A stretch of DNA of 64,000 nt, taken from Dryocola clanedunensis subsp. sulfonylureivorans. GTDB lineage: Bacteria > Pseudomonadota > Gammaproteobacteria > Enterobacterales > Enterobacteriaceae. The stretch is taken from assembly GCF_016756775.1 (NCBI RefSeq), contig NZ_JAERMU010000014.1, positions 1 through 64,000 of the forward strand, given 5' to 3'. This document shows, piece by piece, positions 28,849-60,419 of the stretch. The translations under genes and the position numbers were made by a program. How positions within the stretch are numbered: position 1 is the stretch's first letter; each line of letters opens with the position of its first letter. The notes below the pieces were generated by a model, which searched no databases, was not told where the DNA came from, and saw only the letters and a program-made list of their open reading frames with translations.

Positions 28849-28872
28849 AAAACAGGGCCACGGCCCTGTTTT
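28849..28872 (+). terminator. Terminator hairpin after csgA, first of a duplicated pair
   Basis: AAAACAGGGCC, loop AC, GGCCCTGTTTT: an eleven-pair stem ending in Ts, 23 bases after the csgA stop. The 23-bp core recurs exactly at 29013-29035 on the far side of the 140-bp element. Confidence 0.9.
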
Positions 28873-29012
28873 AGATTGCTGACAAAGAAGGAAAAAGCGT
28901 GGTTTTTCCTTCTTTGTGGTAAGCAGGCGAAAATCAATGAATTGATTTTCCTTGTTATTTATTCGGTGAGATCTTTGCGAAATTCGTTCGCTTTAGGTTT
29001 GTCATCAGTCTG
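28873..29012 (+). mobile_element. 140-bp structured repeat inserted in the csgA terminator, copy 1
   Basis: This stretch is nearly identical, as reverse complement, to 60255-60394. It contains three hairpins in order: AAAGAAGGAAAAA/TTTTTCCTTCTTT (13 pairs), GAAAATCAAT/ATTGATTTTC (10 pairs), and GCGAA/TTCGC. The ends are imperfect inverted repeats (GCTGACAAA at the left, TTTGTCATCAG at the right). It encodes no protein and is flanked by direct copies of the csgA terminator hairpin, as if that hairpin were the duplicated target. I do not recognise a named family. Confidence 0.8.
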
Positions 29013-29039
29013 AAACAGGGCCACGGCCCTGTTTTTTTA
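29013..29039 (+). terminator. Terminator hairpin before csgC, second of the duplicated pair
   Basis: AAACAGGGCC, loop AC, GGCCCTGTTT followed by a longer T-run. The first 23 bases match 28850-28872 exactly. The longer T tail suggests this is the original 3' end of the terminator. Confidence 0.9.
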
Positions 29040-60230: not shown

Positions 60231-60254
60231 AAGGCCTCCTGATGAAGGAGGCCT
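60231..60254. terminator. Terminator hairpin after trhO, first of a duplicated pair
   Basis: AAGGCCTCCT, loop GATG, AAGGAGGCCT: stem 5 bases after the trhO stop. It recurs with one loop change (GATG to GGTG) at 60395-60418, across the 140-bp element. Confidence 0.85.
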
Positions 60255-60394
60255 CAGACTGATGACAAACCTAAAGCGAATGCGTTTCACAAAGATCTCA
60301 CCGAATAAATAACAAGGAAAATCAATTCATTGATTTTCGCCTGCTTACCACAAAGAAGGAAAAACCATGCTTTTTCCTTCTTTGTCAGCAATCT
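60255..60394 (-). mobile_element. 140-bp structured repeat inserted in the trhO/yceI terminator, copy 2
   Basis: This is the reverse complement of the element at 28873-29012, of the same length (140 bp) and with the same three hairpins. Differences include the loop of the long stem (GCGTGG versus GCATGG) and the small third hairpin (GCGAA-ATTCG-TTCGC versus GTGAA-ACGCA-TTCGC), where the stem change leaves a G-U pair. It is flanked by direct copies of a 24-bp hairpin unrelated in sequence to the one at copy 1. No coding capacity. Confidence 0.8.
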
Positions 60395-60419
60395 AAGGCC
60401 TCCTGGTGAAGGAGGCCTT
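60395..60419. terminator. Terminator hairpin after yceI, second of the duplicated pair
   Basis: AAGGCCTCCT, loop GGTG, AAGGAGGCCTT, 8 bases past the yceI stop on the opposite strand. With its twin at 60231 it leaves each of the convergent genes trhO and yceI its own hairpin. Confidence 0.85.

Follow-up and report, generated by a model that had tools for sequence, protein, structure and literature searches.

Introduction

Among the repeated elements that have been described from enterobacteria, the named kind closest to the element reported here is YPAL/RU-2 of Yersinia, which is likewise non-coding, miniature in size and present in many copies. According to the passages that deal with it, YPAL is found in Yersinia and Erwinia carotovora and its target duplications are variable in length (3–26 bp), spanning or adjoining regions of dyad symmetry; these passages name no helper, and the mobilisation of YPAL-type elements by a transposase was described in 2007 as being as yet without experimental support (PMC2229807). 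ERIC/RU-1, which like the present element is an intergenic miniature element of enterobacteria, is described as 127 bp long with TA ends and a TA duplication (PMC2229807, PMC2759123). Additionally, repeats of 142 bp and 154 bp ('Kristensenii 39' and 'Aldovae3') have been listed for Yersinia (PMC2847712), and these, when compared by their description only, resemble the present element in length and copy number. As judged from this description, the 142-bp repeat may be a relative of it.

The IS1182 elements are a known, little-studied group of jumping genes. For one member of this family from the staphylococci, IS1272/TnSha1, the relevant passages report that it targets hairpins, several of them terminators, with no sequence preference, and that it deletes all or part of the target hairpin and makes no duplication (PMC4923244, PMC5678879). 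A duplication of the whole hairpin is drawn only as a possible pathway (pathway b of Fig. 13) beside the IS1272 deletion route (PMC5678879). For an IS1182 element from Paracoccus, the duplication listed is one of 4 bp (PMC3281130), and IS1182 elements are stated to be over-represented between convergent genes (PMC9208149), which fits with terminators as their targets.

A Duplicated Terminator Hairpin Between csgA and csgC

The whole stretch of DNA that was analysed, which we will refer to as the window, comprises 64,000 nucleotides from a contig of Dryocola clanedunensis subsp. sulfonylureivorans (NZ_JAERMU010000014.1). A preliminary description, made from the letters alone, had indicated that the terminator hairpin of csgA is doubled in this DNA, and this is confirmed by an exact 23-bp direct repeat (AAACAGGGCCACGGCCCTGTTTT) at positions 28850–28872 and 29013–29035, with 140 bp in between. 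By Pfam, the neighbouring genes code for two curlin-repeat proteins, a csgA-like gene adjoining the element, and for CsgC (Tafi-CsgC). The intervening DNA had been described as a 140-bp element with three hairpins; three stem-loops are indeed predicted for it, but its length is better taken as 141 bp (28872–29012, forward strand), as a comparison with the ends of insertion sequences (IS) makes its first bases TAGATTG. By this parse the duplicated csgA terminator hairpin is of 22 bp (AAACAGGGCCACGGCCCTGTTT). The upstream copy, in place of which relatives have a single hairpin, occupies positions 28850–28871, and its exact repeat downstream (29013–29034) is followed by a T-run.

The element itself is non-coding. 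Its left end (TAGATTGCTGACAAA, 28872–28886), which is of the ACAAAG type, continues into a perfect hairpin, a feature it has in common with the IS1182 elements, and its right end (TTTGTCATCAGTCTG, 28998–29012), located by an end-motif search and the comparison with IS, is an ACAAACC end on the other strand. Fold prediction places hairpins at 28882–28917 (a perfect stem of 15 bp with a 6-nt loop), 28922–28956 and 28965–29006, all under a closing terminal stem, with an energy of −49.2 kcal/mol (z = −5.8 against 200 shuffled sequences). When the flanking hairpins are included, the energy is −93.8 kcal/mol (z = −12.5), because the two copies of the palindrome can also pair together. A search of Rfam with the element gave matches only below the gathering scores. 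A second copy, which had also been indicated earlier, lies in the window at 60255–60395 on the reverse strand, and its flanks consist of a different duplicated hairpin: AGGCCTCCTTCACCAGGAGGCCT on the left in the orientation of the element (60396–60418, reverse strand) and the same sequence with one base changed on the right (60232–60254, reverse strand).

Copies of the Element in the Host Genome

The host genome (G000) contains at least 58 full and three partial copies of this element. An initial genome search identified 41 copies with 90–100% identity, a figure that is a lower bound as 40 of the 97 first-look candidates were scored. A search with the right-end motif (up to two mismatches), for which 20 stretches were fetched, added 17 full and the three partial copies, and all 20 of these places proved to be copies or parts of the element. 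This motif gave three further weak matches in the host besides the element copies and a repeated match in contigs C46 and C47; the latter was rejected, as it sits in a longer repeat (78% identical) and is no element end.

A direct repeat of a hairpin is observed at the flanks of 54 of the 58 full copies, and the hairpin differs at nearly every site. In the first set, 40 of 41 copies had a flanking repeat score of at least 26 (range 26–57), and in the further set 14 of the 17 full copies scored at least 24; for 257 random pairs of mismatched flanks taken from different copies, the median score was 11, the 95th percentile 16 and the highest value 44. A clear hairpin repeat was absent at four full copies (C2:273587, L080 with a score of 19, L090 and L092), of which C2:273587 forms a tandem with a second copy. 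In 37 of the 41 copies, one or more adjacent open frames with a minimum of 100 codons were directed toward the element, although the frame call was crude. No preference of orientation relative to the T-run was seen among 39 copies (21 to the right, 14 to the left, and four ties).

Tandem arrangements were noted both for the miniature copies (host C2:273587–273894) and for IS1182 elements, where an IS-hairpin-IS order is present at L302 in genome G246. In such arrays, the hairpin of an already inserted element seems to have been hit again. In a separate observation, the flanking hairpins of one host copy (L095, C1:139448) and of an IS1182 element from a Salmonella plasmid (L257, 522–2109 of CP053580) share their stem, with the loop inverted in one of them, which may reflect hairpin or cruciform processing.

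Unoccupied Sites in Related Bacteria

To this set of copies can be added a comparison of the same sites in related bacteria. A search for CsgC led to eight named gammaproteobacterial records, viz. Dryocola boscaweniae, Enterobacter sp. R1(2018), Buttiauxella agrestis, Cedecea colo, a Buttiauxella MAG, Franconibacter helveticus, Enterobacter pulveris and Phytobacter massiliensis; a ninth locus was a remote match at chance level and was left out. In seven of the eight records the gap between csgA and csgC has one hairpin and no element. The gap is also empty in G004, a genome of the host genus, and when the two flanks of the window copy are joined they align to it along their length. Eight of nine relatives are hence empty at this site, and the ninth has a short remnant. 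Because G001, G002, G003 and G005 agree at this locus with the Enterobacter sp. R1, Cedecea colo, Dryocola and MAG records, five of the nine relatives belong to the host genus as it is defined in the genome set.

The remnant is found in the Buttiauxella MAG (L271), which has one hairpin and, just upstream of the csgA terminator, about 30 bp matching the left end of the element in the opposite orientation. Its score is 39, compared with a best value of 22 for 200 shuffled elements, the shuffles having been measured on the other strand (forward). These 30 bp are apparently what is left of an insertion in the opposite orientation, and the csgA terminator site seems to have received two independent insertions, one in each orientation.

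Two further sites were compared. At C24:18661, G004 has a single hairpin (GAGAGCCGG...CCGGCTCT) where the host has the hairpin-element-hairpin order; G001, G002, G003 and G005 have diverged there and are uninformative. At C13:36279 (L044), a single hairpin is present in G001, G002 and G005, and G003 has diverged. G004 has a copy of its own (C1:2932076–2932214) in a different hairpin (AAATGGCTCC...) behind the same gene as in the host, which indicates that the terminators at this place have been hit repeatedly. The reading of the preliminary description, viz. a miniature mobile element that inserts at terminators and duplicates the whole hairpin, is well supported by these sites and by the hairpin repeats at the copies: the copies do carry duplicated hairpins and the element is not ancestral in all relatives, in both respects the opposite of what would speak against it. 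The element thus has the size of a miniature inverted-repeat element (MITE) (141 bp, where such elements are below 500 bp), the copies (41 of 90–100% identity, 17 more full and three partial), terminal inverted repeats (TAGATTGCTGACAAA and CAGACTGATGACAAA) with the hairpin repeat as target duplication, and precise empty sites at the three places csgA–csgC, C24:18661 and C13:36279.

At an E-value of 1e-10 or lower, matches to the element were found in 11 of 60 genomes including the host, representing six of 55 genera, all from one family; all six genomes of the host genus were among them. In the plasmid collection, ten records (nine from Klebsiella and one from Providencia) have relatives of the element with about 79–88% identity, and no DNA similar to it was detected in the phage and E. 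coli collections.

IS1182 Elements with Similar Ends

The preliminary description had suggested IS1182-type transposases as the family to consider for a helper, and this suggestion has gained support from IS1182 elements whose ends are closely similar and whose target duplications are of the same kind. The end motif AGAYTGMTGACAAA, which excludes the bases that follow at the left end of the element, was searched for in 149 genomes from the family and matched in 34 of them, compared with two single matches for a reversed-pattern control. Thirty motif loci were inspected, and seven of them (L107, L110, L113, L119, L122, L125 and L128), including one that is the host's own, have a pair of ends and a hairpin repeat. 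The remaining loci were single ends, or short pairs that lack a repeat, and several of them apparently lie within genes. No hairpin pair was present at the motif locus L111, next to which is a gene that we take to be IS3-like, and at L124 and L130 the outer flank was not repeated within the stretch examined.

In viral contigs, two exact 15-mers retrieved 122 stretches, of which six (L192 and L193 among them) contain an element with a hairpin repeat; the others were taken as chance matches. L192 is an element of 1596 bp with the motif at both ends and AGCCACATAGTGGCT on each side. Its protein of 479 aa scores 494 bits against the NCBIfam IS1182 model NF033551 (cut-off 270) and contains the Pfam domains DUF772 and DDE_Tnp_1_6. 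It is thus a full-length IS with ends closely similar to those of the miniature element, as the earlier description had proposed to look for, though none is found in the host genome. In a second element of the L192 type (L182), the gene is frameshifted.

A tblastn search of plasmids with an IS1182 transposase matched 2864 records. Among the best 40 of these, identity was 89–93% for Providencia, 80% for Salmonella and 65–70% for Klebsiella, with Vibrio, Rhizobium and Bacillus lower. Of 12 IS1182 loci from plasmid or phage records, 10 have such ends with a palindromic repeat of 16–28 bp; the ends are more divergent in one of the 10, ISBspe1, and L265, another locus from these records, is broken. 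Similarly, when the transposase was searched for in 295 genomes of the order (E ≤ 1e-60), it was present in seven genomes with 22 loci, and 11 of these loci (10 distinct copies) have the ends and a palindromic repeat. In ten of the 22 no end pair with a repeat was found; most of these are partial matches, and L288 is an intact, distant transposase (35%). The elements L255 (from a Providencia plasmid) and L284 (genome G367) have intact IS1182 ends with two different complete hairpins at their sides, which we read as the probable result of recombination between inserted copies.

Taken together, the IS1182 elements of Providencia, Salmonella, Klebsiella, Vibrio, Rhizobium and others have CAGAYTGMTGACAAA-type ends close to those of the element, and in these elements a palindromic duplication of 15–28 bp corresponds to the target hairpin. 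Both ends of the element are common to autonomous IS1182 elements, and compared with the nearest of these each 15-bp end has one or two mismatches. In the gammaproteobacterial IS the two ends are unlike, an ACAAAG end that runs into a hairpin and an ACRAACC end with its own hairpin, and this pair is also that of the element; two ACAAACC ends are found in the IS of Rhizobium and Aminobacter and in L284. The end hairpin of the element is strong at the ACAAAG end (−22.6 kcal/mol, 60 nt) and weak at the other (−5.1 kcal/mol), weaker than in the IS. The IS1182 elements L192, H16 (Providencia), H21 (Salmonella), and H23 and H25 (Klebsiella) are thus like the element in their end motif, left-end hairpin and palindromic target duplication, whereas they are 1.5–1.6 kb in length and carry a transposase, while the miniature element is without a gene and its right-end hairpin is weaker.

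The element and these IS share the rule of palindromic duplications, from which other IS1182 elements differ. A search of 60 genomes with the IS1182 HMM gave two matches above the cut-off (L048 and L049), and neither has an end pair or a flanking hairpin repeat. With these and with the Paracoccus and IS1272 elements as exceptions, the hairpin-duplicating rule holds for the group with these ends and not for the whole IS1182 family.

YPAL and Other Elements with Similar Ends

YPAL agrees with the element in its end sequence and in having a dyad-symmetric target. The YPAL end CAGACTGCTGACAAACC matches the right end of the element at 16 of 17 bp, and YPAL has the same ACAAAG/ACRAACC-type end pair. 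However, at 168 nt it differs in length from the 141-bp element, and beyond the ends no similarity to its sequence is observed. The author of the preliminary description knew no named element with this sequence; YPAL/RU-2 is a named relative that shares an end with it. De Gregorio (2006) is said to have found that the targets of YPAL overlap terminators too. A YPAL copy of 98% identity with a palindromic duplication was found at L161. At L193 (368–1904), a YPAL-like element with a palindromic duplication is interrupted by a transposase gene, presumably of the IS110 type.

Other elements with ends of this kind were also observed. L128 (81–1527, genome G166) is an element of 1446 bp with AGATTGCTGAC-type ends, one of them four mismatches from the motif, and a near-exact hairpin repeat of 29 bp; in place of a transposase it codes for an antitoxin resembling YefM and a toxin resembling YoeB, and would thus appear to be a passenger of this machinery. 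Lastly, L113 (1499–1651, genome G112) and L116 (genome G167) contain an element of 152 bp whose ends are also of this kind, with a hairpin repeat at L113; we take its interior to resemble REP/BIME sequence.

Target Rule and Proposed Mechanism

To define the target rule, the parse was used in which the element starts at the T of TAGATTG (compare CAGACTG of the IS). The ungapped duplications are 18–32 bp in length for the element (n = 39) and 15–28 bp for the IS (n = 21). The edges of the element duplications lie 1–3 nt outside the outermost G:C pair of the hairpin in 36 of 39 cases on the left and 37 of 39 on the right, and for the IS the left and right edges are equidistant from this pair in 19 of 21 cases. 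Duplication length is correlated with hairpin span (r = 0.74 and 0.64), a relationship that is partly built in, since the span was measured inside the duplication or adjacent to it.

These features are consistent with a mechanism in which the transposase would bind both ends of the element (the CAGAYTGMTGACAAA-type repeats) and would pick its target by shape at the base of a hairpin, in practice mostly that of an intrinsic terminator. The two 3' ends of the transposon would then be joined symmetrically to the outer feet of the target hairpin on opposite strands, and since joining at the outer feet makes the whole hairpin the gap to be filled, the hairpin sequence would be left single-stranded on both sides and fill-in would give the hairpin-element-hairpin order for a hairpin of any length. 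Cuts at the base of an extruded hairpin or a cruciform would make the duplication track the length of the hairpin instead of being fixed. The cruciform step is a model, and the hairpin could be present as a cruciform, as a hairpin of the lagging strand or in some other form. This is the route sketched as pathway b in PMC5678879, and the present data are many natural products of the duplication outcome. As the duplicated hairpin would preserve termination, such insertions would be tolerable, which would help to explain the presence of about 60 copies.

Discussion

The observed duplications and empty sites, the close similarity of the ends and a target rule shared with a set of IS1182 elements lead us to conclude that this element is very probably a MITE moved in trans by a DDE transposase of the IS1182 family, with hairpin shape determining the target. 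No IS1182 transposase was detected in the draft genome of the host (88 contigs) at E ≤ 0.001 or at E ≤ 1e-60, and the element is therefore probably an orphan here. This result bears on present mobility more than on origin.

It is unlikely, in our assessment, that the transposase of this same element reads a short sequence at the edges of the terminator A-run or T-run and makes a wide staggered cut there with no recognition of structure. Such an explanation is favored by the cut edges lying in the base pairs that flank the G:C stem, at the 1–3 nt given above for the element, and by the A-run or T-run present at the cut edges in most targets. However, the duplications range from 15 to 32 bp and are mostly symmetric about the hairpin, no common target sequence is visible when the hairpins are compared by eye, and the six outside bases at C1:93788 and C1:316771, sites that may have decayed, have no A-run or T-run. 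Recognition of the hairpin by its shape is in better agreement with these observations, and a helper other than IS1182, for instance a Y1 transposase of the REP type or the machinery that moves ERIC, has a still lower likelihood. Although short palindromic elements of enterobacteria are often tied to REP-type or ERIC systems, both ends of the present element resemble those of autonomous IS1182 elements that follow the same target rule. Its duplications of 18–32 bp also differ from the TA of ERIC-type elements (PMC2229807, PMC2759123).

Hardly any weight can be given to the explanation that the element is ancestral to the curli operon as a regulatory RNA or an attenuator and merely contains two terminators. 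The element is structured (z = −5.8) and placed in an operon gap, as would suit such a role, but it occupies about 60 loci that are unrelated to one another, the hairpin differing at nearly all of them, and between csgA and csgC it is missing from eight of nine relatives, with only the oppositely oriented remnant in the ninth. In view of the empty sites this explanation is rejected for the origin of the element, whereas single copies may have gained a regulatory role later.

Hairpin targeting by IS1182-type elements (IS1272, with deletion) and whole-hairpin duplication as a hypothetical pathway are already in print. As far as we have searched, the new points are this family of elements, the connection between YPAL-type elements and IS1182, and the rule of the symmetric hairpin, and no paper dealing with YPAL and IS1182 together was present in the literature searched. 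From the close similarity of the ends and the unusual target rule that is shared, a testable helper family can now be named for the YPAL-type elements. The rule that the duplication has the length of the hairpin is seen more than 50 times in one genome and in the IS1182 elements of several bacterial groups. It favors a transposase that reads DNA structure, and it constitutes a duplicating counterpart of the deleting IS1272 route, the target hairpin of the element being retained and doubled and not lost. For the host, insertion of the element explains the double terminator downstream of csgA. More broadly, we incline to the view that enterobacteria harbor a superfamily of miniature elements, including YPAL and forms with passengers such as yefM-yoeB, that would be driven by IS1182 transposases which read extruded hairpins and duplicate them exactly; terminators would in this manner be multiplied without loss of termination, and the duplications would provide fresh targets, giving rise to tandem arrays of the hairpin-element-hairpin-element type.
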